Source of the DNA: Scenedesmus sp. ARA3
Taxonomy: Eukaryota; Chlorophyta; Chlorophyceae; Sphaeropleales; Scenedesmaceae
DNA length: 64,000 bases
Assembly (NCBI GenBank): GCA_004335835.1
Contig: RWJK01001054.1
Coordinates: forward strand, 60,857-124,856
Direction: 5' to 3'
In this document: piece after piece, positions 1 to 58,865 of the stretch
Layout of the letters: every line of letters begins with the position of its first letter
How positions within the stretch are numbered: the first letter of the stretch is position 1
Notes under the pieces: model-generated
Told to the model about the DNA's origin: nothing
Databases searched by the model: none
The model's input: only the letters and a program-made list of their open reading frames with translations
Made by a program: the position numbers and the translations under genes

Positions 1-3000
1 CAGCCCGCCAACTGCAGCAGTGTGCAGCGTGTGCAGCCGCACCTGTGTCGTGAGCAGGAACAGAGGCATGGCGCTGCCTGCCGCCTGGAAGCGCTCCACA
101 CACCCGACTGATCCTTCCACACACATTTGGCCAAGCAATGCTTGAAGGTGCGCAGCTTTGCAACTTTCATGCTAGACTGTCCATCGTTACATTTGACAAC
201 CCGCATTTACAATAAATTTAATTTGTTGCCCACAAACGCACCTGTGTCGTGAGCAGGAACACAGGGATGCTGCTGCCAGCCGCCTGGAAGCGCTCCACCT
301 CCGCCTGCCGCGCGTCAGTTGAGGACATGCTGCCGTCGATGCGGCAGAAGGACCAGCCTCGGGCAACAACGGCGGCCTGCGACAGCAGCAGAAGCGACAC
401 ATGCTGTATCAGCAACAGGCACAGGACATGCTGCCGTCGATGCGGCAGAAGGACCAGCCGCGAGCAACAACGGCAAACCTGCAGCAGCAGCAGCAGCGGC
501 AGCAGCAGCAGCGGCAGCAACAGCAGCAGCAGAGGCACAATCTGTGTCAGCAAGAAGTCATGCTGCCGTAGGTGCGGAGGAAGACCAGCATCGCGACACC
601 ACAGCATCCTACGGCAGCGGCAGCAGGACAAGCTGTTTCGGCACCAATACATGCTGTCATGGACGCGGCAGCAGGACCAGCTGCGCGTCACCGCAGCAAC
701 CTGCAGCAGCGGCACCACCGCCAGAAGACAGCGGTGTCCTGTCTCAGCACCGACAGGGACACTCAGCAGCCAGCAAAAGACAAGCTGCTTACCATGCGGG
801 CAGGAAGGCAAGTGACGCGCTGTCACAACGCCCGCGCTTGTGGCTTCTCCGACAGGCAAAACTTAAAAAGCAAGCCGCAGCCACACCACCTTTCACTCTG
901 CCCACCTGCAGTATGTCCAGCATGACCCTGCTCTGGCTGAACGCCAGCATGCGCTTGCCGCTCCTTCGACAAACTCAAGCAGGAAAGAACACTGAGACTT
1001 TTCCAGCCGCCCGCACCCACCTGCAGTATGTCCAGCATGACCCTGCTCTGGCTGAAGACCAGTGTGCGGTGCCCCCCAGCCACCAGCCCCTTCAGCAGGT
1101 CAGCCACAAACAGCGCCTTGCAGGAGGCCTCGGGCCCCTTGGTGCGGATGCCTTCTAACAACCGATCCTGCAGCCCCTCGGCTGCTGCCCAGGTCATGAA
1201 CTCCTCACTGAAGCCTACGGCACGATGCAACACAAAATCAGCAGCACAGTGTAAGTGCCAGCACAGCGTGAATTTATGTATATGGTTTGGGTGGTGGCGC
1301 CTTGCAGGAGGCCTCGGGCCCCTTGGTGCGGACGCCTTCCAGCAGCCGATCCTGCAGCCCCTCGGCTGCCGCCCAGGTCATGAACTCCTCACTAAAACCT
1401 GCAGCGCAGCGCAGCACAAAATCAGCAGCACAGTATAAGTGCCAGCATAGCGTGAATTTCTGTATAGGGTTTGGGTGGTTGCTCCTTGCAGGAGGCCTTG
1501 GGCCCCTTGGCGCGGATGCCTTCTAACAGCCGATCCTGCAGCCCTTCTGCAGCCGCCCAGGTCATGAACTCCTCACTGAAGCCTGCAGCGCAGCGCAGCA
1601 CAAAATCAGCAGCACAGCATAAGCGCAGCATAGCGTGAATTTCTGTATGGGGTTTGGTGGTTGCGCCTTGCAGGAGGCCTCGGGCCCCTTGGTGCGGATG
1701 CCTTCCAGCAGCCGATCCTGCAGCCCTTCTGCTGCTGCCCAGGTCATCCTCACTGAAGCCTGCGGCACAATGCAACACAAAGTGAGCAGCTCAAAGTGAG
1801 TGCAAGCATACTGGTGAACTGATGGTTGATGGTTTGGATGGTTGCCCATTGCACAGATGGCTATGGGCCCCTTGGTGCGAATGCCTTCTAGCAGCCGATC
1901 CTGCAGCCCTTCGGCTGCTGCCCAGGTCATGAACTCATCACTGAAGCCTGCAGAGTAAACAGCAATGCATAAGTGCAGCCATAGCAATGCAGAAAAGCTG
2001 AGCTTAGCCCATTGATGGCTGATAATGTAGCTGGCTAAGTGCAGTCTACAGTTGTGTGCCCTCAATTCAGCACCGATTGTGTGACTTCATGCAACCAGCA
2101 GTAGCAAGAGAGCTGCACAGTAAATAACAGCGTGCAGGCTCACCCGCATCATCCAGCGATGCAGCCACTGCGGCGCGGCTGCGGGCCGCTTTGCTGTTGA
2201 AGCCGCCGCCGCTGCCGCTGCTGCCATTGTCTGACTCGCTACCGCTGCCAACCTCGTCGCCACTGCCGCTGTTTTCAACACTGTCATAACCGCCATTTTC
2301 ATCATCGTCATCATCCACGATAAAGTCGTCCATGCTGCTGCGGCGCTGCTTGCTGCCCTTGCCGCTGTGCTTGGACTTGCCCTGCTGCCCACGCCTGCTG
2401 GCTGCAGCGCAGCAAGAGGAAAACAAAGTGCCACAAACAAGCGGTGGCAAGGGCAGATGCTGTCAGCAGGACTACAGGCAGCACAAGCTGCAATGGTTGC
2501 AGCAGGCACAAGCTCTGCATGCGTAGCTAGCTAAGGTGGTACTGTCCCATCTAATGCACACAGTTGACTAGCACCTCATCATCAGCAGATGCACATCGGA
2601 GAGACTCCAAGGCCCCAAAGCCGCAAGCCCGAACCAGCCGCACCTGTGAGCACCAGCTTGGTCGCGCGCTCGCTCAGCAGTGCCGGGTGGTCGCACACCT
2701 TCTTCAGCACCGTCAGTGCAGCCAGCGGCGACTTGCTGCTGTTCAGCGCTGCTTTCACGGCATCAGAGTGCAGGAAAGCTTCATATATATGCCGCTGCAG
2801 CGGCTGCAGGCGCAGCCATATGACTAGGTCATGCTTGGTACCCATCATAGCAGGCACAGCAGACCCTCCAACTGTTGTTGATCCTGCTGCTGCTGCTCCT
2901 GCTGAACTCCCGCTGCTGCTGCTGGCCGCACTTGCTGCTGCCACCACAGTGCCTGAACCCCCGCCACTGCTGCTGCTGCCGGCACCCGCTGCACTGCTGC

Positions 3001-4526
3001 TGCCGCTGCCACTGCCAAAGACCTCCTTCTTCTCCCTGCGCAGCATAAACGGCGCCACAATGCGCCGCAGCTCTGCTGCCTTTGCTGCTCCGAGCTCCCG
3101 CACCCGCAGCCCTGCGCTGCGGTCCTGCCCTGCTGCAATCGGCTTTTCAAAAGCCGATTTGAACTCGCGAGGGCCCCCCAGCAGGCCAGGCACAGCAAAG
3201 TCGAGTAAAGCGTGCAGCTCTGCCAGGTTGTTTTGCACGGGAGTGCCGCTGATGATGACTCGGCAGACTGCACGCAGCTCCCGCAAACGCTGCGCCAGCT
3301 GAGTGCGCGCGTTCTTGACCTGCACCATGTGCAGAAGACAGCACAGCGCAGCGCAGCACGTCGCGATGGAGTTAAACTGAAGCGGCATACGTTCAAAGCA
3401 GATGCAGACCCATCAAGCAAGGGCTGCAGTGGGCGCTGCTCCCATGCACCCCTGCCAAGCAGATGACGGGAAGCAGCGTTCACCACAACAAGGAAAGCGC
3501 TCGGCCGAGAGCAGCCGCCGTTGGTCAGCCGAGCAGCACCCTGCATCACCTGCTACACCTCACTGAGCAATATGTGCATCACAAGCGCCATCACTGCTCC
3601 ATGCACACATGCTCACCGAACTGTAAAGCATGCTGCTGCAGGATCCTGTGCGCCGTTGTGCCCAACTGTACGCTCACCTTGTGTCCCTCGTCCAGTATGA
3701 TGTAGTCCCACAGGATGCGCCTGCCCTCAGGGGGAGACAGGCTGAAGGGGTCCTCCTCGTCCTCAGCCTCATCCGTGTCTGCAGCAGCAGCAGCAGCAGC
3801 AGCAGCACCGCAAACGATCACGAGGATGAGCATGCCGTCACAGGCCAGCTTGAACAACTGCAACCGCCTGCTGTACGTCCATGACCATGACCGCACACAA
3901 CACCGCGTACATGCTGATTGTGAAGAGAACGAGGGTAGTTGCATGTGGGTCCCGTTTGTTTGTGTTCAGATCGTAAAGCCACCATACTAACCCTGAGCCA
4001 ACCCAAGCCCCCAAACCACCCAGACAAGCCTCACCTCGCGCCGCCGCACCCAGCCCCGCGCGCAGCTGCGCCGCATTGTGCAGCACCATGCCATACGTTG
4101 TCAGCAGCACGCCGCCCCTGCCTGTCACCGCACGCAGCGCAGCCGCGCGCTCGCCCTCGCTGCTGCCATTAAAGCAGTGGCTGCGCGGCCCTTTACCACA
4201 TGACGTACTGCTGGATACGTGCTGATTGCGCACCATCACACGCCCCCTGAGCCACTGCAAATCTTTAAAATCAGATGCAGCACAGCCTCACCTCGCGCCG
4301 CTGTACCCAGCCCCGCGCGCAGCTGCGCCGCATTGTGCAGCACCATGCCATACGTGGTCAGCAGCACGCCGCCCCTGCCTGTCACAGCCCGCAGCGCAGC
4401 AGCGCGCTCGCCCTCACTGCTGCCGTAGAAGCAGTGGCTGCGCGGACCCATGCCGCACACACGCAGCTCCTTCTCCCAATGCGACAGCAGCGTCTTCGGG
4501 GCCACAATCATGGCCCGAATGGCCCC

Positions 4527-4573
<47 letters not shown>

Positions 4574-6856
4574 GAGGTTTATCATATGCGTTGCCGTGCC
4601 TGCTGCGCTGCAGGGCGCCCGCCAGGAATGCGGAGCACTGCATCGTCTTGCCCAGGCCCATGTCGTCAGCCAGAATGCCACCCTTGCGCATCCTGCAAGG
4701 CAGAGCAAAGGATTGAATCAGGAAGCAGACAGCAACACAGTCGTTGCGGTGAGTAGTGAAAGTAGCAAAGGCTCATGTCGTCAGCCAGGATGCCGCCCTT
4801 GCGCATCCTGCAAGGCAGGCAGAGCATGGATTGGGTTGGCCAAGCAGCCAGGAGCAGAGTCACCACAGTGATCACTTACGGTAAGACAGGCCAAGCCGTC
4901 AGCCAGGATGCGTCCCTTGCGCATCCTGCAAGCAGGCAGGGCAAAGCGCATGCTGTAACAGTGCAAGCAGTGCGAGGGAGTCAAGTATGACAGCCAGAAT
5001 GCCGCCCTTGCGCATCCTGCAAGCAGGCAGAGCAAGCACGGCAAAAAGCGTCTGAGTAAGCAGCCAAACAGGAAGGAGCACCACAGAAAGTGCCAGCAGT
5101 CTGAAAGTCCTTTGTAAGCCAGCCTTTGCAAGCCAGTCAAGGGTTCTCCCTTGCGCACCATGCTTGCAAGCAAGGGCATGCAATGCAGCGAGGCGGTGCG
5201 AGCAAGGGGCGAGATCCATGTGTGCCTGCGGCTGCTGCTGGTGCCATGGCTGCCGACGGCACTGCTTGCAGCCCCACCCCTCGCCAGCACTTGCGGCTGC
5301 AGCCTCTCATCTGTGCAGCAACCACAGCCACTTCAACGCCCTGCACCTGGTGCTGCTGCCATGGCTGCTGTCTGCGCTGCTGCAGTCACTCCTACACTGC
5401 CAGCACTTGTGTAATCACGCCTCACCTGTGCAGCGCCCACAGCCACTTGACGCCCTGCTCCTAGTGGCACTGCCATGGGTGCTATAGCGCTGCCAGCATT
5501 GGTGTTCCGGCCTCTCACCTGTGTAACGATCACAGCCACTTCACGCCATGTACATGGTGCTGCTGCCATGGCTGCTGTCTGCGCTGCCGCAGCCACACCA
5601 ACTCTGCCAGCACTTCTGCTTGTAATCACCCCTCACCTGTGCAGCGACCACAGCCACTTGACGCCCTGCTCCTAGTGATGCTGACATGGCTGCTATAGCG
5701 CTGCCAGCATTGGTGTTTGCAACCACCCCTCACCTGTGCAGCGACCACAGCCACTTGACGCCCTGCTCCTAGTGATGCTGCCACAGCTGCTGGCTGCGCC
5801 GCTGCATGTGTTGATAATCAACGCTCACCTGTGCAGCGACCACAGCCACTTGACGCCATGCACCTGGTGGGGGTACAGCTTGGCAGCAACCTTGGCCTCC
5901 AGGCAGAAGCCGCCCTCAAGCACCAGCGACCCAGCAGGAGCAGCAGCTGCTGCTGCTGCATCGGGCTGCTGCTGTGCTGCATCTTCAGCATCGTCTGCGC
6001 CGCTGCCAGAGCCTGCGCATGCATCATCGTCAGAATCTTCGTCCTCGTCATCAGAGCTAGCAGTAGCAGCAGCGGCTGCAGCTGATGTCCGCTGCACTGC
6101 CCTGCCTGCTGCTGCTGCTGGCTGCACAGTGGTCTGCAGCGGCTTTCTGCTGCGGGGCACAACAGCAAGTTCCTCATCATCATCCTCACTGCTGCTGTTG
6201 CTGTTGCTGTCTTTGCTGCTAGCATCTTCGATCTCATCTGTCACATCATCGCTAGCAGCGTCATCATCTTCTGTTGCATCTGCTTCCTCGCTGTCACTGG
6301 CTGCTGCTGCTGCTGCCTCTTCAACCTCACTTGCATCTGTGGCATCACCGTCTGAAGATGCAGCAGATAAATCCAAATGCGGTGCAGCCTTCCTGCCACG
6401 CTCTGCTGTTGTACTGCCAGTGCTGCTAGCAGCTGCTGCTGCAGGCTGCCTTGAAGTGGCACCTGCTCCTCTGGCATTGCTGTTGCTGTTCGTGCTGGAT
6501 GACAGACCAAAGCCCTGAAGCATTCCTGCAAGCTCATCTGCATCATCCTCTAGTTGCTGCTGCTGTTGCTGCTGTGATGCAGCAGCATCGCGCCTGATCA
6601 AGCGGCTGCGTCCCTGCTTGCTGCCACCAGCCTGGCTAGCTGCTGTGCTGCTGCTGCGCTGCTGTTGAGCATCGTCATCACAATGGTCAGAGTCGGAGTC
6701 GGGCAGTGGCAAGAGGGCTGCTTGAGCACTTGCGCTGTGTGGCCGGGCAGCAGCAGCATCAAGCCTGCGCTGACGCTGTGCTGCTAGCTGCTGTATCAGC
6801 TGTGAGGTGTTCTGCTTGTCATCTGACTGATTGCGTTCGCGCCTGCTGCGATCCAT
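1..6856 (-). CDS. SNF2-family DNA translocase, ERCC6L/PICH-like (5' part; continues past the left edge)
   Basis: Exons by splice sites and phase: 5829-6856, 4292-4692, 3678-3778, 2644-3319, 2144-2401, 1021-1214, 242-376 (about 931 residues before the edge). The N-terminal ~310 residues are acidic, Ser/Ala/Gln rich and low complexity. Core motifs follow in order: Q-like region ending GVKWLWSLHR, Walker A DDMGLGKT (~residue 353), the Ia block with IVAPKTLL, DEGH (~505; the family usually has DEAH), SGTPVQNN, a KHDLVIWLRL block and CDHPALLS. RIDGSM and FLLTTQ of the second helicase lobe sit in the last exon. Block order and the KxDLxIW signature match ERCC6L/PICH better than Snf2 or Rad54; that family remodels nucleosomes and acts on ultrafine anaphase bridges. 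An acidic insert with a MDDFIVDDD motif separates the lobes. Motifs V and VI lie outside the window. Seven exon junctions are duplicated inside its introns (listed separately), so alternative exon use cannot be excluded. Confidence 0.88.
43..105 (-). repeat. Donor-side copy of SNF2 exon 7
   Basis: A second copy of the exon 3' end (encoding VERFQAAG...FLLTTQ) followed by the same GTGCGG donor as the exon ending at 242. It differs by a few substitutions and lies in the intron downstream of the real exon, or is an alternative exon. Confidence 0.75.
427..702 (-). repeat. Acceptor-side copies of SNF2 exon 7 (3 copies)
   Basis: The 5' part of the exon that starts at 376 (GWSFCRIDGSM region) recurs with starts near 478, 607 and 700, each after a CAG or TAG acceptor-like dinucleotide. 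The copy at 478 is nearly identical; the others are more diverged. All lie upstream of the real exon, inside intron 6. Confidence 0.7.
906..960 (-). repeat. Donor-side copy of SNF2 exon 6
   Basis: Repeats the 3' end of exon 6 (FSQSRVMLDILQ) with a GTGGGC donor; the real exon ends at 1021 with GTGGGT. It lies just downstream in the same intron. Confidence 0.75.
1300..1947 (-). repeat. Four tandem acceptor-side copies of SNF2 exon 6, period about 177-188 bp
   Basis: Copies start after acceptors at 1398, 1582, 1759 and 1947; the full exon starts at 1214. Each carries the segment encoding FMTWAAAEGLQDRLLEGIR plus intron sequence that is itself repeated. The 1759 copy lacks six bases (the FM region). 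Only the 1214 copy continues into the ATPase lobe sequence, so it is the one joined to exon 7. Confidence 0.85.
4035..4205 (-). repeat. Donor-side copy of SNF2 exon 2 (long)
   Basis: About 165 bp repeating the last third of exon 2 (GSSEGERAAALRAVTGRGG... to AARG) with the same GTGAGG donor. The real exon ends at 4292. A possible acceptor precedes the copy, so it could act as an alternative exon. Confidence 0.8.
4528..4572 (-). repeat. (CTG)15 run encoding poly-Ser inside the SNF2 ATPase domain
   Basis: Fifteen perfect CTG units on the + strand (CAG on the coding strand, read as AGC = Ser). The run lies between motif I and motif Ia, a place where the family normally has a short loop. Confidence 0.9.
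4771..5163 (-). repeat. Four acceptor-side copies of SNF2 exon 2 in intron 1
   Basis: Copies of the exon 2 start (MRKGGILADD) preceded by a TTGCAG acceptor end near 4808, 4926 and 5017. A degraded copy ends near 5163 with CAAG in place of the acceptor. Real exon 2 starts at 4692. Confidence 0.85.
5311..5785 (-). repeat. Five donor-side copies of SNF2 exon 1 in intron 1
   Basis: The exon 1 end (GVKWLWSLH) plus GTGAG donor recurs with exon-side ends at 5734, 5637, 5519, 5426 and 5311; real exon 1 ends at 5829. Spacing is 93-118 bp. The 5311 copy has its donor GT changed to AT. Several copies are preceded by an AG that would define a 29-nt micro-exon, which would shift the frame if included. 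Confidence 0.85.
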
Positions 6857-7921: not shown

Positions 7922-7939
7922 CGGACTTGCACCCAGGCA

Positions 7940-33700: not shown

Positions 33701-34320
33701 GAGTTGCACTCTGGCATCATTGCTGTAGTGCAAACTGGCATTGCTGCAGTGCGCCACATATACACAAACATACTCCTATCCAAGTCCTCCTGGAAACCTG
33801 GCTCGCCCTGCGGTGATGCATGCTGCTGTTGCGTGCTGCTGCCACAGTCCACTGGCGAAAGCGTGGCGCAGCAGCTGCGCCCGCGTGCCAGGCGTGCTGT
33901 GCTGCTAGCGGCGCTGGAGGCTGAGGAGCAGGCAGGCGGCATGGAGGCGCCCGGTGAGGCACAGCAGCGCTGCGCCGCATGAAGCAATGCGCTAGTGCAG
34001 CAGCGCTGGCGTGGCCCATGTTGATGCAACAGGCGACGCATGCAGGAATGAACATTGGTAGCAATAAAGCTTGTGATTCGCAGCTGCTTTGCCGGGTATT
34101 GGTCAAAAAGTGGTGTTGGGCAAAAAGGCAAGTGGAGGCAGGCGCTTGCACACCCGGAGCTTGCTTCACCGCATCAATTTCGAGATATCATTTTACGCTG
34201 CTGTGTGCTGCAGGTGCGCTGCAAGCGCTGCTGGGAGCGCACTGCGGCTCATGCCAGCAGCTGCGCGAGCAGCTGGAGGCAGCACAGGCACGCGCTGACG
34301 CTGCAGAGGCGGCAGCTGCC
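28983..34320. repeat. Left arm of a large inverted gene-block duplication
   Basis: Carries a BTB gene (-) and an F-box/LRR gene (+). The same two genes occur in mirror order at 35300-40815. Intron positions and phases match exon for exon. Homology at the outer end stops at the HSVE codons of the BTB gene. Confidence 0.85.
30749..31176. promoter_or_regulatory. Divergent region between BTB and F-box/LRR genes (left arm)
   Basis: 428 bp between the BTB start and the proposed F-box start. The counterpart in the right arm is 38153-38896. No defined promoter element was found. Confidence 0.4.
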
Positions 34321-34455: not shown

Positions 34456-35207
34456 TGGAGGACACGCACAGGCAACTCCGTGAAGACGGGTTGTGATGTT
34501 GGCAGAGACAGGTGGTGTTGTGTGCTCGCCTTGCTTGCCGGCCGCTGCATGCAGCCCGATAAGCACACAGGTATCTGTGAGGTACCTGGTACGGTGCTAC
34601 TTGTGGCATGCAATATTGCATCAATGCACAATAGTAGATGTCAGCGCCAAGCCGGTTGACTGATGCGTGACATGCGGCGTCAGCACAGAAAGCATTTCTG
34701 GGTCCGCTGGCGCTGGTTGCAACCAACTCAATTGGGTTGTTTGGATAGACTGTTGAGCAATTATAAGGGTTGTTGCAGGGGTTGCATAGTATTTTGCATG
34801 CACTGACGAGTGCGCCATCGTGTTGTTGCCGTGGTGCTACCATGGCGTGCCAGTGCTCCTGATGCCCAATGAGCCTGTCACTGGCTCCCCAACGGGCGAG
34901 GTTACTTGTGTCACTTTTAAATGTGATTTGCATAATACTGTTACATACCTCCGCTGATTTAACATAACAGACCGCGCACAAAAGGCTTGGGGGCTGCTTG
35001 GCTGCAATTCCGAGTTATAAAGAGTCTTTATATGGCTGACAACTTCCATCCATAATGGCGCCACGTACATGCAGGCATTTGACTACATACTGCGCTGCAT
35101 GCAGCAACCAAATAAAGATTCGAGCGCCAACACAACTAGTCTGCATGGAGCCGCCTGTCTGCATCAACCACCACTGCACAGTCCACATGCGCTGCAGCAG
35201 CAGCCCG
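34456..35207. other. Centre of the inverted duplication (spacer)
   Basis: Non-homologous sequence between the converging 3' ends of the two F-box/LRR genes; loss of homology begins inside their last exons (about 34320 and 35300). It includes a short dispersed repeat near 34861-34897 that resembles 59130-59165. Confidence 0.6.
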
Positions 35208-38152
35208 CTAGCGCAGCTGCTGATCCTTCGCCTTTGCAGCATCCAGCTCCGCCCTCGTCATTCTCAGCTGCTGGCTCGCTTTGAGCCACCGTGCAGTCAT
35301 CCTATCCACCTCTGCTTCTGCAGAATCAGCGCGCGATTGCGCCGCCTCCAGCTGCCCACGCAGCTGCTGGCATGACCTGCAGTGGGCCCCCAGCAGCGCC
35401 TGCAGCGCACCTGCAGCACACAGCAGCAGCGTACACAGCGCAATCCAGATCAGCCACTCGCAGCCTGCCGCCTGCAGCCCATGTGACTGCGCACCCTGCA
35501 ATCTTCCAGGCGTGCCTTATCGAGGCACCAGGGTCACCCTGCTCAAGTTCCTTGTCAGAAGCTGCATTGTATCAATTCAAAACAACCCACATTCAGCACT
35601 GCTGTGCCAGTCCCGTGCTTTACTGTGCTGCAGTGTTGCGCCCCCCACCCCACCCGCCCACACACCCTCACCGGGCACCTCCATGCCGCCTGCCTCCTCC
35701 TCAGCCTCCAGGGCTGCCAGCAGCGCCACTTTGCCACAACATCATGCTGCAGCGCTGCCGCCTGCCCCACCCATAAACCCCAACCATGCTCACCGGGCGC
35801 CTCCATGCCGCCTGCCTTCTCCTCAGCCTCCAGCGCCGCCAGCAGCGCCGCCCGCCGGCAGCGCCGCCGCAGCTGCTGCGACACACTTTCGCCAGTGGAC
35901 TGACACAGCAGCATAGCAACAGCAGCAGCAGCAGCAGCGGCAGGGTCGTGCCGCATGAGGAGGTAGGCACAGTGGGGGCGGTGGATAGGCATGTGCTGAT
36001 GATGGGCACAGCTGCAGCTCTAACTGGTAGAACTGCCACATACGAGCCATGCAGCACAGCGGCATTTGTGCAGTCCAACAAACAACAGAGCAGCTGCGGC
36101 CAACCACTCTATCAGCACACCACGCGCTGCAACTGTACCTGCCTGCGCAACTCGCACATCTCTGTGTGAAAAAGCGCGGGACACACTCTCACTCACTTTT
36201 TGGTAGCGCAGCTCCAGTAACCCTTCCTCATCCGCATCCTGCATTCCTTCGCTGATGCCGCAGTCATACAGCGACAAGCTGCGCAGGCCAGTCAGCGCAG
36301 TGAGCTGGCCCACACCCTCATCAGTCAGCTCTGCGGCGTAGTACACATGCAGGTGCCTCAGGCTGCCAAGCAGAGTCAGCTGCTGCTCCGCGAACTCGTC
36401 GTCTATCTCATCTCCTGCAAGGAAGAGCTCGCTCAGCGCAGTCAGCTGCAGCAGCGGCGCCAGCTGCGCATCGTTTGTCACACAGCCCGGCGCCAGCAGT
36501 GTATGCAGCGCAGGGCAGCAGCCGACCATGGCCTGCATTGCCTCGCTGTTTAAGAAAGGCGGCGGCAGATCATCAGCATCCTCAACAGGGTCATCTCCGG
36601 CCTCTGGGTCCCACCCAAATGCCAGCTGCTGCAGCCGAGGGAGATGCCGCCCCGCAAACAGAGGGCAGCCGTAGCGCGCGTCGGGCAGCATGCGTGCGGT
36701 GCCGCGCAGCACCAGCTTGGACAGGTGCTGGGAGGCCGGCAGCAGGCCGGAGTACCTGGAGGGCAGGCGGGGCAGAGCAGGCGGCAGTGGCGATCAGGCA
36801 AAGAGGAGCGCTAGCAAGGCAGTGGGTTTGAGGCGGTACAGCGGCAGCAGCAGCAGCAGCAGGAGAGGAACAGCTTGGACTTCAAGTCAGAGAGCATCAG
36901 GTGGTGCAGGGGTGTGGTCAGGTTGTGTGAACAGGTCCGCCTGGCACGTTTTCAACCGAAGCACATGCTGTTTGCAAAATGTTTAGTGACGCGCAGGTGC
37001 CATCAGCAACCACAGCATCATGGCCACTCCATTGCGCTCAAGCCCGCACCTGGCTGCTTCGCTTGCTGGCAGCACCGCCACAGCGCCACACTCCATGTCC
37101 AGCTGCCGCAGGCTGCTCAGCTGCGGCATCACCTGCAGCAGCGCAGGCAGTGCGTCCCTGCTCAGCCATCCCAGCTCCAGCACCTGCAGCTGCTGCATGC
37201 GGGACAGCAGCAGCGGGTCCAGGCCGCCTTTGCCATGTAGTTTGTAACAGCTCCAGCGCTGGATGCGCAGCGTCTGCAGCGCTGTTAGGCCAGAAATGCC
37301 TGCCACATTGCTGAGGCCTAGCTGCTGCTTGCCGGCCCATTCAAATTGCAGGTGGGTGAGCGAGGCTGGCAGCTCAGCTAACAACCTGGCAGCCTGCTCA
37401 GGCCTCAGAGTTTGCTTCAGCTCCAGACGCTGCAGCTGCTGCAATGCGCTGAAGGGTGCTGCAGCTGCTGTTGGAAGGTAGCAGGGGTCCAGCTCGATGC
37501 GTGTGAGCTGCGTGAGCTGCTGCAGGCACAGCAGATGCTCCTGCTGCTGTTTGGCATCGCAGTGCACCTTGATGTCATTGCCGAGTGCCAGATGCTGCAG
37601 CGCTGTGAGAACTGACAAGCTGCGCAGGCCTACTTTGATGAAAAAGCTGTCAATAAGTATGTGGGACAGTGACAGCTTTGTTAGGCTGCTGAGGTCGCAC
37701 AGCGGGTGGCTGCCACGGCTGGCCCCCTGCCTGCTGCTGCCCTGCGCGCAAGAAAAGCTGCTGCGACCTTGTCTGCTGCTGCTGCTGCCAGCTGCACCAG
37801 CCGCTAGCTCCGTCTGCAGCAGGAATCCGTTCAAGCTGCAGCTGCGCAGCTGCGTCAACTGTGCGTAAGGCAGGCACAGGCTCTGCTCATTACGGATTGA
37901 GGTCAACTTGAGCTGTGTTAAGTTGCCGCCATGTGCACGCAGCCACTGCGTCAGGCTGCTACTGCTGCGGGAGGCAAGTTCCTGCGAGATGGCTGTGGTG
38001 GCTGCTGCTGCCGCTGCTCTCCAGGCACGGCTGACCAGGGAGCAGCTGCGCAGGCGCTGCCGCTGCTTGATGCGCTGCAGGACCAGGGTGAGCACCTCAT
38101 GTGGCAGCTGAGGTTGCTGCTGCTGCTGCTGCTGTCGTTGCCGCTTCTTCTT
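35208..38152 (-). CDS. F-box / leucine-rich repeat protein (right copy; start exon not identified)
   Basis: Exons: 37050-38152, 36197-36755, 35794-35899, 35208-35410; ~656 aa without the start exon, all in phase. F-box-like LPHEVLTLVLQRIKQRQRLRSCSLVSRAWR, LRRs (LQVLELGWLSR, LTALTGLRSLSLYDC) and a final coiled coil (QQLRGQLEAAQSRADSAEAE) parallel the left copy, including an identical 106-nt third exon. The last exon diverges after SAEAE and ends with TAG. Reading stays open upstream of the acceptor to 38317, but the left copy has a splice site at the same place, so the true N-terminus is unresolved. Presumed SCF substrate adaptor. Intron 3 carries a duplicated donor-side junction. Confidence 0.78.
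35672..35737 (-). repeat. Donor-side copy of the third listed exon of the right F-box/LRR gene
   Basis: Repeats the 3' half of exon 35794-35899 (AALLAALEAEE...GGMEAP) and its G|GTGAG donor about 122 bp further into the intron. The left-arm gene lacks this copy, so it arose after the inverted duplication. Confidence 0.8.
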
Positions 38153-38896
38153 CTGCAAGTAGGGTTGCAGTGGAGATGGATGCAGAGTAACAGGCGTACG
38201 GTGTGGCAGGTGAGTTGTTATGTGGCAGCATTCAGGGCTTGAGCTACAGTGTGTGTTGTGAAAATGCTCAGCAGCCCACACGCTGCCCCTTTCATGTCCT
38301 GACCTGCTATAGCACATTTAGAACAAGAACAGGATTGTACACATAGCTTGACGGCTGTGCTGCAGCTATTTGGTGCAGATACTTGCTGTGGCTCTCCTGC
38401 AGCAACCTGCTACTGCAGGTGTTGCAATGTAGCCTGGTCTAGAAGACCCCTGCACCTGCTTTGCCATGCCTGCTCCTGAGACTGAGACACTTATACCAAG
38501 TTGCGTTCAAATGCTGCAAATGTGAAGCAGATCTTCGCCGCAGTTCTTAGGCAACAGACAGTTTAAATGGTGTCAGGCGGGAGCAAGAACGTGCCACGCA
38601 TTGCCTTTGGTTCACATTTCTTGCCGTCAAAGTCCACGGTTTACAATCATACCTGCGTGAACTGTCACATGATACGCTAGCACCGCAACATGTCACACAT
38701 AATCAGCGAGCACGTTGTGAACTATCCTCACCGTGTGCAGTGATTGTGAACTAACTGGAGAAAGATTCGTTTATTTCTGCCGAAACTAGGTTCCTTGTAG
38801 CTTGCAAGTCAGGTAGCCCAGCAGGGCCACCTGCAGGGAGGTGTGCGAGCCTGGCAGGCCAAGCAGCACACAGCACAAGGCACAGGAGGCACCAGA
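38153..38896. other. Region between the right F-box/LRR and BTB genes
   Basis: 744 bp. It should contain the start exon and promoter of the F-box gene and the promoter of the BTB copy. No clear ATG-bearing exon equivalent to that of the left arm was found. Confidence 0.4.
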
Positions 38897-41605: not shown

Positions 41606-42754
41606 ATGGCTTGCATCAGCTTCCGCCAGGCCAGTTTCAAGCAGGGCACTGCCAAGCCGGCAACACGCCGTGCTGTGCGTGTGATGGCAGTGCACCAGCC
41701 CAACAAGCCAATGACTGACTTCGTTGCTGCTGCTGCAGCAGCAGTGCTCTTGGTGAGTGGGATTACCTGGGTCCATCCTTGCACTGCCTTCAAAACTGCA
41801 CATTGGCGTCTTGATGCAAACAGCGGAATGTGCTTTTATCGCTCTTTGCACGCCTGTCAGGATCAACCGTCAACCTTGGACCTGGGTATGCCATCTTGGC
41901 ACAGCAACTGCTGTTTGTTATGCATGCATAATAGCGCAGTGCAGTTGCGCACTCATGCTGGCAGCAACAAAATTCTCAGGTAGCATAGCAATCATCTTCT
42001 CAGCAGCAGCACGTGCATAACATGTCCACATGGACAGCACACAGCCATCAACGCGCCGAGCACAACTTTTTACACCTGTCCCTGCTGCTGCCCTGCCCGT
42101 GCATCTCTCGTCAGTGCTCTGCTGCACCCTTCCAACACCCGCCCGTTTCCCTCCACTGCCCTCACGGCACCACCTGCAGGCCTCCGCCAGCCCTGCTCTG
42201 GCCTCCGTTCCCCTCAACCGCGCCATCATTTTTCAACAAACCATACGCAACGAACCATTCTACTTCTGCTGCCCCTCCCCTGCCCTCACCCGCACCACAT
42301 ACAGGCCTCCACCGGCCATGCGCTGGCTGTCACCTCTTCAACCCGTCCATCCCTTCTCAGCAAACCTCAAACATTCACTCACCCTGCTGCACACTGTGCT
42401 CCTCTGCCTTCCCATCCCCTGTCTTACCTCCGCAGGCCTCCTCCAGCCCTGCGCTGGCTGCCACCCCCGTCGACCCTGCCATCCCTGAGCTGGCGGGCCC
42501 CGTGGGCAAGCTGCTCAACAAGCCATCCTGCTCTCCCCGTCCATCACCCCTCAACAACTCTCTGCTGTACTTCACCTTGCTAACCTTCTACTGCTACCCC
42601 CCTTACCGCCGCAGGCCTCCTCCACTGCTCCTGCGCTGGCCTCCTCGCCCCTCAACCCGGCCATTCCCGAGCTGGCGGGCCCTGTGGGCAAGCTGATCAA
42701 CTAGCCACACTGCCAGCGGCTCTCACCTCTCATCACCCCTCAACAACTCTCTGC

Positions 42755-42800
<46 letters not shown>

Positions 42801-43827
42801 GTTACTCATCAAGCCATAGCATCAACGCCATCTCTCTGCTGTACTTCACCTTGCTGATCTCTTCCTGCTACTCTCCTTACCGCCGCAGGCCTCCTCCACT
42901 GCTCCTGCGCTGGCCTCGCCCCTCAACCCGGCCATTCCCGAGCTGGCTGGTCCCGTGGGCAAGCTGCTCAACAAGCTGGACGCACAGGACCCCCCTAAGG
43001 GCGTGCCAGGGCCCAAGGTGGAGGGACAGTTCCGTGAGTACCCCTGGCTTAGTAAGCTGCTGGTGTCTTGCATTGCGTTGCTGCTGCCTAAAGCAGTGCC
43101 AGGGCCCAAGGTGGAGGGACAGTCCTGTGAGTACCACTGGTTTGATAAGCCGTTAGCGTCGTTCATTGCACTGCTGCTGCCTAACTTGACACGAAACTGG
43201 CCCTCCACTTTGGGCCAAGACTCTAACAGCTTATTGCCTAAGCCCAAAGTGGGGAGCCGGTTCCGTGAGTACCTGCAGAATCAGTGCTGCTAATATATGT
43301 GGAGGCTGGTAGGCCAGCTTGCCGAGGTGCAGGGTGTGCTCGCAAACCTACCTCCTGTGGATGATGCACTGTTGTTGGGGGTGCTGTGACACTCGTTTGC
43401 TCAACAGGCTGCAGGGTGTGCAATTACGCTTAGCACGTGGTCAGCCGCACAGCTCTCTGTGCAGCCGTGACAAACACCTGCCCACAAGTGATGTTGGCGT
43501 GCAGGACACTCGCTGCTGCTGCTGCTGCTGCCGCCGCCGCCGCTGATCCACTTGGCGCTGCTGCTGCTGCTGCTGCTGCCGCCGCTGCCGCATGCCATTG
43601 TGCTTATTTTCTGCGTTTTGTTATCTGGCAGTGAACACACTCACCGCTGTTGCTGCGGGTACATGCTGCATCCCTCTCGCTACTGCTGCCGACCTGCAGA
43701 GGCCGAGCCCAATTCCGGCCTTGCCGGGATTGACGCCAAGCCCGAGGGCCTCAGCTGGAAGAACTTCCCAAAACCCAGCAAGAACACGCCAGCAAACCAG
43801 GAGAAGGCGATGGGCCGAGGCTTCTAA
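41606..43827 (+). CDS. Probable thylakoid-lumen protein, uncharacterised (139 aa, or 170 aa by alternative splicing)
   Basis: Exons 41606-41752, 42889-43033 and 43700-43827 join in phase to 139 aa ending GRGF. The N-terminus (FRQASFKQGTAKPATRRAVRV) is transit-peptide-like. A hydrophobic stretch (FVAAAAAAVLLASSTAPALA) ending in an Ala-x-Ala motif then looks like a bipartite lumen-targeting signal. The mature part (PLNPAIPELAGPVGKLLNKL...) is small and Pro/Lys-rich; I do not recognise it. An alternative is a GC-AG intron from 43820 to 43935 and a last exon 43936-44036 (GANPAKARALALENSP..., TAG stop), which also keeps phase and gives 170 aa. Both flanking introns carry splice-junction copies. 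Confidence 0.68.
42180..42700 (+). repeat. Four acceptor-side copies of exon 2 of the lumen-protein gene
   Basis: Copies begin after CAG acceptors at 42180, 42305, 42436 and 42615; the real exon starts at 42889. Each starts GCCTCC and encodes ASxxPALA or close variants. The two nearest the real exon extend to PAIPELAGPVGKL and the farthest ones are most diverged. Confidence 0.85.
42756..42800. repeat. (CAT)15 microsatellite
   Basis: Fifteen perfect CAT units in intron 1 of the lumen-protein gene, between the last junction copy and the real exon 2. Confidence 0.95.
43095..43268 (+). repeat. Two donor-side copies of exon 2 of the lumen-protein gene
   Basis: Copies of the exon 2 end (VPGPKVEGQ) plus GTGAGTACC donor finish near 43130 and 43266; the real exon ends at 43033. 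The second copy is more diverged (KPKVGSRF). Confidence 0.82.
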
Positions 43828-50522: not shown

Positions 50523-52751
50523 CTACAAACGGGCAGCTTCTGATACGAGCTTGTGCTGCTTCTCAAGTTTGTCTTCAATAAAAGCAACACCAAATCTTAA
50601 AGAGCAAGCTATGCATGTACCTTTGAGCAGCTTGCACACCCCAAAACTCCATAGCAGCTGCAGCACCCACGTTCATACACCCATGTCTAAACACGCATGC
50701 ACCCTGATGGTGCCGCAGGCAGCTGCGCACCTGCTTTGCCCGCAGCACTTCACTCCTCCTTTCAAGCTCCCTGGCATCCTTCCAGTCCCTGCAAGCCGCA
50801 TGGCAGCAGTTGCAACCGCCACCTGAACTCCAACCCTCAACTGCCATGCGGCTGCTTGCATTTGATGATGATGAACTGCCATGTGGCTGCATGCAGCCTG
50901 ATTTTTTCGTGGCTGCTGCACTCTTCAGCTGCAGCATGCCAGCACATGCCGCAGCAGCATGACGCGCTGCCATCACAGCGCAATGCTGCAGTGCTGCAGT
51001 GGTCAACCACAGAGCAGCACCGCTGGCACCGCAGCTGCAGCAGCACGCTCTGCAAGCCCACCCTCTGCTAGCTGCCTACCGTGCTGATTGCCTGCATGCC
51101 TTGCTGGCTGCCTGCCTGTCTCGCTGCCTGCCTGCTTTGTTTGCCGGCAAACAAGGGCCTCACAAGGCCTGGCCCCATGCAAGGCCCTCTCTGCTGTAGC
51201 CCAGCCGCACCTCATGGCTTTGGTTAAGCACCTGTCCAGCAACAAGAGCCGTGGCTGCACCGCAGATTTTCAGCCATGAGCCTGTCAAACATCAATAGGC
51301 AAGGCCGCACCTCATTGCTTTTGTGATGAACCTGTCCAGGCCCAAGATACGTTGGAAGGTGAGCGCCAGCAGCACCAGCAGCAGCACTGCGCTGCTGACT
51401 ATGGAGGGTGCATCCATGTAGAAGCCGCGGCTACTGAAGCTGCAGCAGCGCAGCAGTGCAGGAGGGAGCGGCAGGGCAGCCAAAGATACACACACAGCAC
51501 ATAGTTGGGAAGTAGATGGCAGGTTCGTTGGCTCTGCTGTCGAGTGCTTTGCTACCTGCTGGGTTGCAGTGTCTGCCAGCTTCCGTGATATTTTAATTTG
51601 TAACTTACCTGCTGCATCTTGCAGCCAGGTCAGAAAAAGAAAGACCAGAAGCTGCTGCTGTGTCCATCACATTTGAGCTCTCGTGACAGAGCCAGCCTGA
51701 ACAGGCCCACAACCTCCAACCAGTGGCTGTGTGCCGCACCTCTCCACTGACACGCGCTGCATGCCATTGCAGGCGTACTGCCGGAGTCATTCTGTGGGTC
51801 TGCACTCTCCCCCTCTCCTGCTTCCACTGCATCAGTCCACTGACAACTAAATAACTGGCGCTTTGCTGTATTAAGTCGCTATGCATCCTGTACGTCTAGT
51901 GGTGGCCTTGCATTGCACTGCAAATGTCTTTGCTTGACACCAATTGTAACAAGCATTCTTATGCTTACACCCTCAAAACAGCTGTGTGCCGCACCTCTCC
52001 ACTGACACGCGCTGCATGCCGTATGGGTCATCCATGCCAGGGTTGACTTCTACCACTCGCTGCAGCACACCCAGGTTGCTAGGCGCTGCTGGGCTGCTGG
52101 CACGGCAAGAGGACAAAAAGAAGCAGCACGGGCAGTGAAGTTCAGCAGGACATGCCATATGCTGGCACACGTGTTACTTGATGCCTTACTGTTTCACATG
52201 ACGACACTCGACATTATAGATAGACAATCTTGAAACATCAGTTGGCATGAAGTAGTGCTGCTGAGTGTGTGCCCATGACCTCTGTGCCTGCCAGCAGTGG
52301 AGCGCCGCTGTGTGCACACACACACGCGTGTGCACACAGCGCGACGACTTATGAGTAGATCTGCAACTGCCTTAAACAAACATCAGGATGTACTTTAGGG
52401 CATTAGATTAGCACCATTGCCAACACACCTGCTGAACTCTTTTGGTGCTGCTTTGCAGGTCACTGTGCTCCTGCCAGCGCTGCTCTGTGTGTAGTAGAAG
52501 TTGCGCTGCTGTTGTTGTTGCAAGAAAACTGGCGTACAGGCCTGATGGCTTATGCACCCTCTCATTGGTGCTGAAGTTGTTTGATGTACAGCTTGACTGC
52601 TTTGCATGGCAGGCTGCATGTTGCCAAGCTTCACACAGCAGTGCAGCAGAGTTGCTGTGGTCTGTGGTGTCACACCACTGGTGTGCGCAGCAGCTTGCGT
52701 CTTGCAACAGTCAGCAGCAGCAGGGAAAAGCAGGACAAGCACACGGATCAT
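50523..52751 (-). CDS. Probable plastid-targeted single-span membrane protein with C-terminal coiled coil (228 aa)
   Basis: Exons 52429-52751, 51995-52093, 51311-51439, 50703-50788 and 50523-50572 join in phase to 228 aa, TAG stop. The long N-terminal exon is basic and Ser/Thr/Gln rich and ends STVTCKAAPKEF, a typical algal transit-peptide border. The mature part has GVLQRVVEVNPGMDDPYGM, one hydrophobic span (SIVSSAVLLLVLLALTFQRI) and a charged helix (RDWKDARELERRSEVLRAKQ) ending KLEKQHKLVSEAARL. The donor of the fourth exon could instead be 50731, but then the last exon is out of phase. I do not recognise the family. Two introns carry donor-side junction copies. The gene is 115 bp head-to-head from the Tpt1 gene. 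Confidence 0.62.
51211..51240 (-). repeat. Donor-side copy of the membrane-span exon
   Basis: Repeats the exon end LDR-x-x-TKAM and GTGCGGC donor about 100 bp downstream of the real exon end at 51311. Confidence 0.75.
51740..51766 (-). repeat. Donor-side copy of exon 51995-52093
   Basis: Repeats GGCATGCAGCGCGTG...GAGAG and the donor GTGCGGC about 255 bp downstream of the real exon end at 51995. Confidence 0.78.
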
Positions 52752-52866: not shown

Positions 52867-54995
52867 ATGAGCAGCGTCACCTTTCGACACGCTCGACTGC
52901 GTCTCGTTCGCCTATCGTCTTCGTTAATCGTGTGCATACCATTCTGCGCACCGGCTGCTTCCTGTTCGCTTCGTCAGCTTTGGACAGCTCGGCAGCAGAC
53001 CAGCATGTCAACAGGCACTTCCGGCGGGGTGCGGAAGCCGCAGCCCGCCAGCCGCAACGTACGCATCAGCAAGGAGCTTTCATACATGCTCAGGCACGCT
53101 CCACCACCTGGCAGCATGGATGAGCAAGGTGAGATGCTGGCAACAGCAGCAGCAGCAGCAGTCCAGGCTTGCCGCTGTGGGCGGCGCACTGCTGACCATG
53201 GTTGACAGTTTAATGTTTAGTTGCTTTTTATACCCTTGGTAAACGTTATGCAGGCTTTGTGTCAGCTAGTGTGCTGATGGCTCACATGAAGAGCAAGCCC
53301 ACGCTGCAAGAGCTGCAGGAAGTGATAGAATCAAATGACAAGGTGCGCCACACTATCAGCAACTGCACCATCAGGTGGTTTAACGTGAGCAAATAATTTA
53401 TGCAAGCATCCCCTGAACAAGCCAACAGATCGGCAGCCGCACTGTTCACCAACTCATCTCATGCAGCAGCAGATTCTGGCATGTCGGCCATACGTGCTGC
53501 GCTTCATTCAATCTCAATGCCAGAGGTGCAGCGGCTCATTTTTGGCCCCATGCACCTGCTGCTTTCTCCAGATGCACCTGTCTGCATCTGTCATCTATCA
53601 GGCTGGCACGCGCCTCCACAGCCCACAGCCAACACCCACTTCACCCAGCTCTGGCCACCAGCCACATTTCACCTCCTTCAATACTTCCGACATTTTATGT
53701 ATTGTAACACGCTGCAGAAGCGCTTCGTGCTGGACGATTCAGCCAGCTCTCCTCGCATACGGGCCGCCCAGGGCCACTCCGTGCAGCTGCAAGCGCCGGT
53801 GCTGACGCCAGTCACGGACGCAAGCAGCGTACCATGTGCGGTGCATGCCACCAGCAAAGAAGGGTGAGCATCAAGCAGCCTGCTCCTTTGGTTTCAATGA
53901 CTGTCAACAGGGCCAGCTCTTGGCTGTTGGAGCAGCCGGTGAGCCGTGCGAAACGGCGCATGCTAACATCAAGCAGTGGCGGCCTGCACCCTTCTGCAGC
54001 AGCTGAGGTTCAAGATCCGCTAGCGCTGCTGGGTGTGCAGGTTCACCTTGCATGCCTGCAACCTGTCGTTGCTCATGGGCTGCTGCTGCATGCCCTGCCC
54101 TGCCCTGCCCTGCCCTGCTGCTTGCATGCCCTGCCCTGCCCTGCCCTGCTGCTTACATGCCCTGCTCTGCCCTGCTATGAAGCTGGGCGGCCATTCAGGC
54201 CAGTGGCAGCCTGCTGCACGTGCAACTTCACATGGTATGCCTGCAACCTGCTGGCTGATGCACTGCTGCATGCCCTGGGTGATTGTTGTGCAGCTGGGAG
54301 GCCATCCAGGCCAGTGGCAGCCTGCTGCGCATGAGCCGCAGCCACATCCACTTTGCCACGCAGCCGCAGCTGCTGCGCGCCAACAGCTGGGCCAGCGTGA
54401 TGCTGCGGCTGAAGCTGCAGGTAGGTAGGGCGCTGCGCAGCGATCTGTGGTTGCATTTGGTCAGCTGGGGAGCCGAATGGCGGCGGCAACAGCAGCAGCA
54501 AAGGTTGCAGTAGTACAGCCAGAGTTACGCTGGCGTGTCAGGGGATAGCCCAATGTGTGCGGAGCAGCAGCCGTAGCGGCTTCCGCAAATGCAGTGTACT
54601 TGCTTCCCTGGTGCTGCAGCAGCAGTTGTGCACATGTGCAACAATTTTAGCACGGCATGCAGTGTGCGTGTGATGCATGGTTTCTGACACATTCTCAGCC
54701 GCAGCTGCCCCTGGCACATACACATTATCGCTTGCAAGAAACGCTAGACATTATGCTGCATCGGCCGAAGTAGTTGCCTTTCACCGTGTGGCTGCTGCGC
54801 GCCTCTGCTGCTGCGCTCCTCTGCTGCTATGCTGCTGTGCTGCTGCAGGAGGCATTAGATGCAGGGCACGCCTTCTTCCTGTCCTCCAATGGCGTGCTGC
54901 TGTGTGAGGGGCCGCTGCCTGTTTGTTTCGTGGAGCAGCTGCAGCAGCAGCAGGCTGAACAGCTGTGGCCAGGCGCAGGGCCTGGCGGGGAGTGA
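52867..54995 (+). CDS. TPT1: tRNA 2'-phosphotransferase (Tpt1/KptA family)
   Basis: Five exons in phase, 256 aa: 52867-53128, 53254-53342, 53718-53863, 54294-54420, 54849-54995. The core matches the family: ISKELSYMLRH, GFVSASVLMAHMK, RFVLDDS...RIRAAQGHSVQL, VHATS, LLRMSRSHIHFAT and AGHAFFLSSNGVLL. The Arg/His residues of the LRH, RxxQGHS, HxT and SRxHIHF motifs correspond to the conserved catalytic set. The enzyme removes the splice-junction 2'-phosphate left by tRNA ligase, transferring it to NAD+. The first ~60 residues are extra and Arg/Ser-rich; translation could instead start at the ATG at 53005, or the extension may target an organelle. Intron 3 holds an acceptor-side junction copy. 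Confidence 0.9.
54090..54175. repeat. CCCTG pentanucleotide repeats in intron 3 of the Tpt1 gene
   Basis: Two runs of four to five GCCCT/CCCTG units separated by GCTGCTTGCATG, with a third decayed run. Confidence 0.85.
54183..54245 (+). repeat. Acceptor-side copy of Tpt1 exon 4
   Basis: Repeats the start of the exon at 54294 (CTGGGAGGCCATCCAGGCC... as CTGGGCGGCCATTCAGGCC) after an AAG acceptor-like site; flanking intron sequence CTGCAACCTG is repeated too. Confidence 0.75.
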
Positions 54996-57635: not shown

Positions 57636-57678
<43 letters not shown>

Positions 57679-57764
57679 TTGTTGGAGTTTCACATCGTGT
57701 CGGACCACATCTTCCTGGCAGCCACCATGCTCATCTGCCTGCAATGCTGCTGCCACTGCTGCTG

Positions 57765-57819
<55 letters not shown>

Positions 57820-57901
57820 TTGTTGGAGTTCCACATCGTGTCGGACCACATCTTCCTGGCCGCCACCATGCTCATCTGCCTGCACTGCTGCTGCTGCTGT
57901 C

Positions 57902-57937
<36 letters not shown>

Positions 57938-58092
57938 CTGCTGGAGTTCCACATCGTGTCGGACCACATCTTCCTGGCAGCCACCATGCTCATCTGCCTG
58001 CACTGCTACTGCTCCAGCTGCTGCCGCCGCCGCCGTGTCTGACCACATCTGATCACATCTTGCTGGCAGCCACCATGCTTACTGCCCCTACA

Positions 58093-58124
<32 letters not shown>

Positions 58125-58865
58125 CTGCTGGAGTTCCACATCGTGTCGGACCACATCTTCCTGGCAGCCACCATGCTCATCTGCCTGCACGCGGAGCTGG
58201 TCTGCCTCATGTCAGACATGCTGCGCACCATCCGCAGCGGCAGCGGCGGCAGCAGTGATGCGGTGTCGTGGCGCGAGGGCGCGCTGACGCTGCTGTTTGT
58301 GGCTGCGCTGTTCCTGTACCTGTTCACGGCAGCGGACATGTACTACACGGCCAAGTACTTCCACTTCCCACTGGTGAGTGCGGCTGGCATCAGGGTGGCA
58401 TTAGGTTGGCCTGCAGTGAATGCTGTTTGCAGCGTCGTATGGCGTTCGCTTGTGATTGATGCCAAGTACTTCCACTTCCCGCTGGTGAGTACGGCTAAGC
58501 CTGCGTGGACTGCTGATAGATTGATGCGGCCTGAGCTTCTGACTGATGCTGCCAGTGGCTGCGCTCTGTGTGGGGACAGTCGGCGCACAACGTTACACCT
58601 CTATATGTCTATGCGTGCTGGCTTTGGTTGGTTTGCAGGCAGGTCTGTCAAGTTCCGCGCTTTCGACATGCGCCAACGCAAATATGCATCTTGGTGCACT
58701 CCAGCTAGTGCCTGGGCATGCTAGGGTTTTCACTGAGCTGCTGCCGCGCTGTGGTGCTGCTGCTGTCTGTCCGTGCAGGAGACCTTTTTCACGACTGTGC
58801 TCGTGTTCATCATGTTCCAGCTGCCAGTGGTGCTGTGGCTGACGCGCCAGCGCGAGCTGCAGTGA
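56799..58865 (+). CDS. Six-span membrane protein, uncharacterised (319 aa)
   Basis: Three exons in phase: 56799-57421, 58124-58373, 58779-58865. The N-terminal ~65 residues are Ser/Gln/Thr rich and low complexity. About six hydrophobic segments follow, including ALLLAPLVVWWLAILMGMWV, LGCMAVYSSMAVARLAVYL, HIFLAATMLICLHAELVCL, LTLLFVAALFLYLF and TVLVFIMFQLPVVLWL. Short polar loops include YHVMLWFDRGLLRP and DMYYTAKYFHFPL. I do not recognise the family; no transporter or enzyme signature is evident. Exon 2 has three to four acceptor-side copies upstream and one donor-side copy downstream. Confidence 0.78.
57620..58110 (+). repeat. Acceptor-side copies of exon 2 of the six-span gene, each led by a CTG run
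   Basis: Copies start at 57678, 57819 and 57937, each after (CTG)n-CCAG, and are nearly identical to the first ~65 bp of the real exon at 58124 (EFHIVSDHIFLAATMLICL). A further partial copy lies near 58036-58080. Confidence 0.9.
58455..58483 (+). repeat. Donor-side copy of exon 2 of the six-span gene
   Basis: Repeats AKYFHFPL and GTGAGT donor 110 bp downstream of the real exon end at 58373. Confidence 0.82.

Follow-up and report, generated by a model that had tools for sequence, protein, structure and literature searches.

At 11 splice junctions in a 64-kb stretch of the Scenedesmus sp. ARA3 genome (contig RWJK01001054.1, positions 60,857 to 124,856; in the following the window, which is the final 64 kb of its contig) the adjoining intron contains extra copies of the exon end or exon start together with the donor or acceptor. 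Such exon-end copies are real in the assembly and are found beyond the six genes of the window. The best account of them is a recurrent local duplication in genes with a displacement of 100–150 bp, which inside exons would be filtered for reading frame, while at junctions and in introns it would be tolerated; we give this account an even chance of being right. An original prediction, made from the letters of the window, had claimed at least 12 such junctions in six genes and on both strands. Our 11 junctions lie indeed on both strands, and what could not be recovered are exons 6 and 7 of the SNF2 gene: the array at 901–1953 is real, but it has no Pfam match and the exons there could not be fixed.

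Local direct repeats in the genome sample

The window was analyzed together with 29 further stretches (each at most 10 kb) of the same genome, which comprises 87.27 Mb in 1567 contigs, giving a sample of 337,216 non-N bases in total. A local direct repeat was defined by a score of at least 42 bits and a separation below 1.5 kb, with microsatellites masked. Clusters with at least 25 unaligned bases between the copies were called gapped, and the remainder, being nearly head-to-tail, tandem. The copies in the window were checked by self-alignment and by direct reading of the sequence. Exons were taken from an ab initio gene finder in which the splice matrices were fixed and a lower limit was set on exon length; it was seeded with our own consensus strings and is imprecise. 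The splice signals of its models, GTGAG donors and TGCAG acceptors, are likewise consensus-seeded; in our judgement they and the gene content have a green-algal appearance. The gene finder was run twice, with the duplicated bases neutralised (masked) and unmasked, and paired figures below refer to these two model sets. Self-training with retrained splice matrices was dropped because the finder drifted into CTG repeats. The key claims were re-tested without gene models by 4-mer enrichment, the gapped/tandem split and the bias toward the 3′ end of the copies.

The sample holds 130 local direct-repeat clusters with 397 direct pairs, which make up about 13% of the bases and have a median copy length of 90 nt. 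Not a single pair arose in a third-order Markov control modelled on the first 253 kb, where the real sequence has 251, and a chance origin of the repeats is therefore rejected. Local inverted hits number only 33, and 26 of these are self-matching palindromes. The density of the clusters is uneven, with 11–12 per 10 kb in two of the stretches (L019 and L021) and none in two others (L004 and L006). The copies had been described as tandem, and this is true for 45 of the 130 clusters; the other 85 are gapped. Certain gaps are masked microsatellites, for example the CTG runs of the gene labelled “six-span”.

Below 200 bp the offsets of gapped and tandem clusters are distributed alike (Kolmogorov–Smirnov test, p 0.58) and both peak at 100–140 bp; the smallest offsets of the tandem clusters range from about 74 to 151 bp (10th to 90th percentile). 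The shared mode is a hint of one origin for both classes. Offsets divisible by three occur in 44 of the 85 gapped clusters (p 0.0003) versus 15 of 45 tandem clusters, and in 10 of the 13 arrays that lie wholly within one exon. Exon-internal repeats may account for part of this excess. Clusters of near-identical copies (at least 96% identity) are rare (6/85 gapped, 0/45 tandem).

In searches of the 87-Mb genome, the full-length matches of three duplicated units were confined to the locus of each, one unit having in addition two short low-complexity matches elsewhere. One spacer searched alone gave a single match, and a P450 copy searched along with its spacer found its own locus as the sole match. 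When spacers were compared with the rest of the sample, short matches were obtained for 22 of 75, mostly of 17–65 bases among the first 40 hits.

Placement in genes and at splice junctions

Copies of an exon end had been reported only downstream of the exon and copies of an exon start only upstream, and the copies do lie so. This placement on the intron side is, however, the required outcome of a tandem duplication that straddles a junction. Of the copies of a duplicated junction, one remains attached to the exon and the others fall into the intron, so that the rule follows largely from geometry and is no evidence for targeting, whichever origin of the copies is assumed.

As a null for the placement, units of the observed offset length were set at random positions, with units wholly internal to an exon excluded. 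Over all placements 74 of the 130 clusters bear a junction versus 37.9 ± 5.1 expected (79 versus 38.1 ± 5.4 with the other gene models), and by the ab initio models 15 clusters are intergenic versus 59.8 expected. The junction excess over the whole sample arises mostly because the clusters lie in genes: among genic clusters 71 of 109 bear a junction versus 62.7 ± 5.0 (other models, 73 of 106 versus 61.8 ± 4.9). A several-fold junction enrichment within genes was expected and, relative to random placement of the units, not seen. An earlier null that took the alignment length as unit gave 58 or 67 of 130 versus 31.6 or 31.8, but the offset-length null was judged to be fairer. Among the 23 clusters with at least 92% identity and no N, 15 (or 17) include a junction and a single one lies between genes.

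The predicted local duplication is supported, but the case for its being centred on splice sites is weak, while the concentration in genes is strong in the ab initio models.

Local duplication as the favoured origin

The copies of the tandem class look neutral. Their ratio of non-synonymous to synonymous differences per site (pN/pS) is 0.56 for 27 donor records and 0.68 for 24 acceptor records with 16 stop changes; the reading frames for these and all following ratios were inferred from a coding score, so that the ratios carry error. At differing sites tandem-class copies lose GC (268 in the real sequence versus 220 in the copy, of 457 sites). The array behind SNF2 exon 1 gives a pN/pS of 0.95 and four stop changes against the real exon.

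The clusters are of direct orientation and local origin, with a modal offset, a bias toward genes in the ab initio models and neutral decay of the arrays. We favour local duplication because they are direct and not inverted, because offsets below 200 bp are common to both classes and because the share of junctions within genes is near random. The multiples of three among the exon-internal offsets, the neutral tandem copies, the undispersed units and an F-box gene copy that is absent from the left paralog of this gene argue in the same direction.

Small local direct duplications, typically displaced by 100–150 bp, would then recur in gene bodies. A duplication internal to an exon would survive only if it is in frame, while one that straddles a junction or lies in an intron would be tolerated, since splicing would take the exon-joined copy and discard the others. 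With exons and introns that are short relative to the unit, many survivors would straddle a junction; certain loci would expand into arrays, and the extra copies would decay neutrally. We infer that the duplicating process was slippage, unequal exchange or the repair of staggered breaks, and that splicing tolerates its products.

The donor edge and the coding-like divergence

A number of observations weigh against local duplication as the full account. Over the full range the offsets of gapped and tandem clusters differ (Kolmogorov–Smirnov test, p 0.037). Moreover, in gapped donor pairs the exon part and the splice signal are kept far better than the adjoining intron, which local duplication does not explain. 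In 30 rows of such pairs (only rows with at least 20 exon bases were kept, and two clusters appear twice) the similarity extends 24–115 nt into the exon, yet in 28 of them only 0–17 nt into the intron. Over 35 gapped donor records the identity is 75–95% in the exon, 75% at +3 to +6, 54% at +7 to +9 and about 31% from +15 onward; the 96% at +1/+2 is inflated, as records must cross the border. Among donors, exon-long/intron-short cases stand to their mirror image as 46:9 with the masked and 70:3 with the unmasked models, and among acceptors as 16:14 and 33:8; mirror cases dropped from the 30 rows were restored in these counts and in those at 88% identity or more. When no gene model is used, the copies are enriched most strongly for AGGT among the 136 strand-symmetric 4-mers (93 of 130 best pairs versus 68.9 expected), and AGGT is also the most 3′-end-biased of the 256 4-mers (31 versus 7 in 121 clusters of at least 40 columns). 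The edge effect at the splice signal is firm for donors and uncertain for acceptors. It was absent from the original prediction and we grade it stronger than the splice-site centring put forward there.

Ordinary decay as a full account of the donor edge was weakened by simulation. Tandem duplications were placed across 137 clean donors, with introns and copy evolving neutrally and the real exon constrained; three indel rates (0.15, 0.4 and 0.8 per substitution) were used. In these simulations, which cover donors only and have no microsatellite masking, exon-only versus other outcomes for pairs of at least 88% identity were 11:139, 15:96 and 22:50 with rising indel rate, whereas 15:5 was observed for donors (16:7 with the other models; Fisher p 7e-11 to 4.5e-4, other models 1e-10 to 1.1e-3). 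Plain tandem duplication with neutral decay thus predicts at least 20 shared intron bases in most donor pairs of this identity. Acceptors of at least 88% identity fall into seven exon-only, three intron-only and six with both (other models 11, 2 and 11).

The intron part from +7 to +56 scores higher than 95% of random comparisons in 8 of 35 gapped and 18 of 30 tandem donors, and in 11 of 22 gapped and 18 of 26 tandem acceptors. For records with an exon identity of 93% or more, the same test gives 1/8 for gapped donors, 2/3 for tandem donors, 2/4 for gapped acceptors and 3/6 for tandem acceptors. Among gapped pairs of at least 88% identity, 10 of 40 spacers exceed the control maximum in a comparison with their neighbour, certain controls having overlapped the spacer itself. 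Between the F-box paralogs (pS 0.21–0.32) intron similarity is still weakly present, with scores of 34–78 versus shuffled maxima of 23–29.

Also the divergence of the gapped donor pairs (n = 26) is coding-like (pS 0.232, pN 0.064, pN/pS 0.27), with 98 synonymous, 77 non-synonymous and three stop changes, and this too speaks against neutral copies. The effect is weaker in a wider set of 35 records (0.39); for a neutral copy beside a constrained exon we estimate that roughly 0.57 would be expected. Acceptor pairs give 0.63 (16 pairs) or, in the wider set of 21, 0.41. Gapped pairs of both kinds show no loss of GC, with 138 in the real sequence versus 142 in the copy at 265 differing sites. The synonymous divergence is homogeneous across the 26 donor pairs (chi-square 31.8, 25 degrees of freedom, p 0.16), and copy and real donors are equally strong (median score 6.92 for both in 35 records). 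Over 50 exon/intron pairs there are two stop changes versus 9.6 ± 3.1 if all change were neutral. Indels are a multiple of three in 23 of 88 cases in exon-labelled columns versus 28 of 212 elsewhere, so that 65 of the 88 break the frame.

Alternative origins of the copies

Two other readings explain the donor edge and the coding-like divergence in part. The two-copy pairs could be diverged versions of one junction that were juxtaposed by recombination of strongly differing haplotypes or by the assembly of a heterozygous sample. Such assembly errors are documented (PMC9516828), and the coding-like divergence without GC loss, the homogeneous synonymous divergence, the copy donors that are as strong as the real ones and the small number of near-identical pairs all fit; moreover, the sampled stretches include two N runs, and one of these (125 N, in L005) separates copies. 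However, N is absent from 129 of the 130 clusters (by subtraction), two haplotypes could not yield arrays of three to six copies, the genome matches found included no further full-length SNF2 exon 2, and the offsets below 200 bp match those of the arrays. We regard this origin as rather unlikely. Alternatively, a process bounded by the splice site could put the exon end plus its signal into the adjacent intron, for example by a break or template switching at the border of an R-loop or of spliceosome-bound RNA. The steep fall of identity past the signal in the 35 records and in 28 of the 30 rows, the excess of AGGT at the 3′ end of the copies and the single match of the lone-searched spacer point to breakpoints at splice sites, but few pairs are young and the acceptors are equivocal: their bias is weak or absent, and those of at least 88% identity are mixed. 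In addition, the offsets below 200 bp do not differ from those of ordinary tandem arrays, such a process would not predict coding-like divergence, and its RNA or R-loop step is conjectural. Copying anchored at junctions is thus unlikely in our judgement. Equally doubtful is its wider form, in which a process tied to splicing or transcription would copy only the exon end and signal, at about one detectable event per few kb, and the introns of the lineage would be built up and renewed from decayed copies of the exons beside them.

The copies could also be retained for a function, as alternative splice sites or in-frame alternative exon ends, in keeping with the low pN/pS of gapped donor pairs, the two stop changes and the excess of gapped offsets divisible by three. 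Against this, a good opposite splice site within 44 nt is no commoner than at random positions, both for donor copies (0.11 versus 0.23, n = 35) and for acceptor copies (0.04 versus 0.08, n = 23), and past 45 copies we saw neither an open-frame extension nor a frame preference, which argues against cassette exons, mutually exclusive exons and whole-exon duplicates. An open read-through whose length is a multiple of three was present in just 8 of 48 cases, so that read-through alternative sites are rejected as a general rule, and most indels in exon columns break the frame. Splice-site redundancy and alternative exons, both suggested in the original prediction, accordingly find little support, and functional retention appears improbable. 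Introners are rejected as well, since no dispersed family was found for five DNA queries in the 87 Mb (three units, one spacer, one copy with spacer); the prediction that neither introners nor whole-exon duplication would suffice was correct. An intron born by tandem duplication of an AGGT-bearing exon segment is suggested by the AGGT enrichment, and the AGGT that this route asks for in the duplicated segment is present (93/130 versus 68.9). The model (PMC3443670) requires that the new intron lies between the two copies. In the three cases read (SNF2 exon 2, the P450 of L029 and “six-span”), the layout does not fit a donor in copy 1 with an acceptor in copy 2 for the next exon: SNF2 exon 3 lies past the exon 2 copy, the next P450 match lies past the L029 copy, and the donor copy of “six-span” has no AG at its border. 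These known routes of intron gain are therefore very improbable.

The copies resemble several known systems in part. With intron gain by tandem genomic duplication (PMC3443670; PMC4974935) they share a local direct duplication with AG|GT and splicing that leaves the coding sequence intact, but here an existing intron is lengthened, often by several copies or a spacer, and copy 2 does not provide a new intron with its acceptor in the cases read. Staggered-break repair (PMC3443670) would fit an insert with direct repeats on both sides; the present copies, however, are tens to hundreds of nucleotides long and do not create a new intron. Minisatellites and tandem arrays correspond to the 45 head-to-tail clusters, unlike the 85 gapped ones, in which the similarity of donor pairs stops at splice signals. 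Adjoining diverged copies of exon pieces also make up false heterotype duplications (PMC9516828; PMC2864568), but almost all clusters here lack N and there are arrays of many copies. The open papers on exon fragments or duplicated splice sites in introns yielded nothing to the point.

Introners and mutually exclusive exon duplicates resemble the present copies in being extra intron sequence with splice signals; they differ in that the units tested here are undispersed and the copies have one splice site only.

Should the copies be real DNA, they densely supply the genome with new intron sequence and cryptic splice sites, whose age and direction of change can be worked out within the genome itself, and a role of splice junctions in shaping mutation becomes testable. 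Should the pairs instead be haplotypes placed side by side, they would be a warning that small false duplications in assemblies of heterozygous algae can mimic biology and inflate introns.

Copies at the splice junctions of the window

The coordinates of the copies and of the real exons are compiled in Table 1. SNF2 exons 1, 2 and 3 splice into an open frame (...YPHQVHGVKWLWSLHR-MRKGGILADDMGLGKT...) with a PF00176 match, in which we take the recognisable motifs to be those of SNF2. The donor copy of exon 2 differs from the real exon by nine synonymous and two non-synonymous changes, and its spacer (4192–4283) does not clearly resemble the adjacent sequence (score 20 versus a control maximum of 19). 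In a domain search of the genome, the best candidates included an SNF2 paralog on another contig (C964, near 120.2 kb) with motif I twice, 109 bp apart.

The donor of the right F-box gene (35793/35794) has one intron copy, and the left paralog has a single copy only; the additional copy was thus either gained in the lineage of the right gene or lost in that of the left. Both genes lie in a two-gene block that occurs twice, inverted (28962–34498 and 35128–40816); the two versions are 74–92% identical in the aligned pieces and their introns are nearly beyond alignment.

The acceptor of the “lumen” gene has three or four intron copies. For Tpt1, PF01885 scores 46.2 bits on an upstream exon, above the cut-off of 26, and a second match, which begins with the exon at 54294, stays below it (24.4 bits). 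In “six-span” the acceptor copies show six synonymous changes and one non-synonymous change across three copies. They are of two sequence types: the copy at 57934 has no coding change relative to the real exon, while those at 57675 and 57816 have three synonymous changes each and the former also one non-synonymous change. The “lumen”, “plastid membrane” and “six-span” genes have no Pfam match, and these names are labels taken over from the original prediction.

Table 1. Real exons and their copies in the window (positions refer to the window)
Feature	Position	Strand	Junctions and copies	Remarks
SNF2 exon 1, real	5829..6856	-	donor 5828/5829	open spliced frame, PF00176
SNF2 exon 1 end + donor, five copies	5225..5802	-	near 5310, 5425, 5518, 5636, 5733	in intron 1; spacing 93-118
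SNF2 exon 2, real	4292..4692	-	acceptor 4692, donor 4291/4292	
SNF2 exon 2 start + acceptor, three copies	4769..5035	-	near 4807, 4925, 5016	
SNF2 exon 2 end + donor, one copy	4027..4191	-		165 nt (last 157 nt of exon + 8 nt donor); in intron 2
SNF2 exon 3	3678..3778	-		DEGHK motif
Array	901..1953		184-bp tandem, 4.6 copies (1113-1953)	additional pair at 901-1068
Right F-box gene	35626..35849	-	real exon end + donor 35745-35849; intron copy 35626-35727	
Left F-box paralog, exon	33875..33953	+		unduplicated comparison; F-box by Pfam
“Lumen” gene exon, real	42889..43033	+	acceptor 42889, donor 43033/43034	
“Lumen” acceptor + exon start, copies	42149..42755	+	near 42180, 42304, 42436, 42615	
“Lumen” exon end + donor, two intron copies	43087..43273	+		
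Gene at 50.5-52 kb, two donor-like pairs	51204..52020	-	51304-51347 with 51204-51247; 51967-52020 with 51709-51765	gene models weak here
Tpt1 exon	54294-54420	+	acceptor 54293/54294	one partial intron copy of acceptor + start, 54178-54217
“Six-span” exon	~58121-58373	+	acceptor before 58121, donor 58373/58374	
“Six-span” first 70 nt, upstream copies			57675, 57816, 57934; partial at 58048	CTG runs between
“Six-span” exon end + donor, one copy	58461..58496	+		last 24 nt of exon + 12 nt donor

Further observations

CAG/CTG repeats are very frequent genome-wide, with 7524 + 7705 exact matches to an 18-base CAG pattern. Among the best candidates of the domain search, P450 genes on two further contigs (C855, 20.3–21.0 kb, and C278, 3.9–4.3 kb) have partial repeats with a common profile end. 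At 9414–9704 of L005, repeat copies flank the 125-base N run, as unmerged contig ends would. The window contains a 120-bp palindrome at 8783–8902 that is 90% self-complementary, and a similar one (96%) is found in another stretch (L013, 7982–8075). Finally, two nested inverted repeats lie at 59599–60200 of the window, with arms of 42 bp (95%) and 36 bp (94%) that span about 600 and 300 bp.

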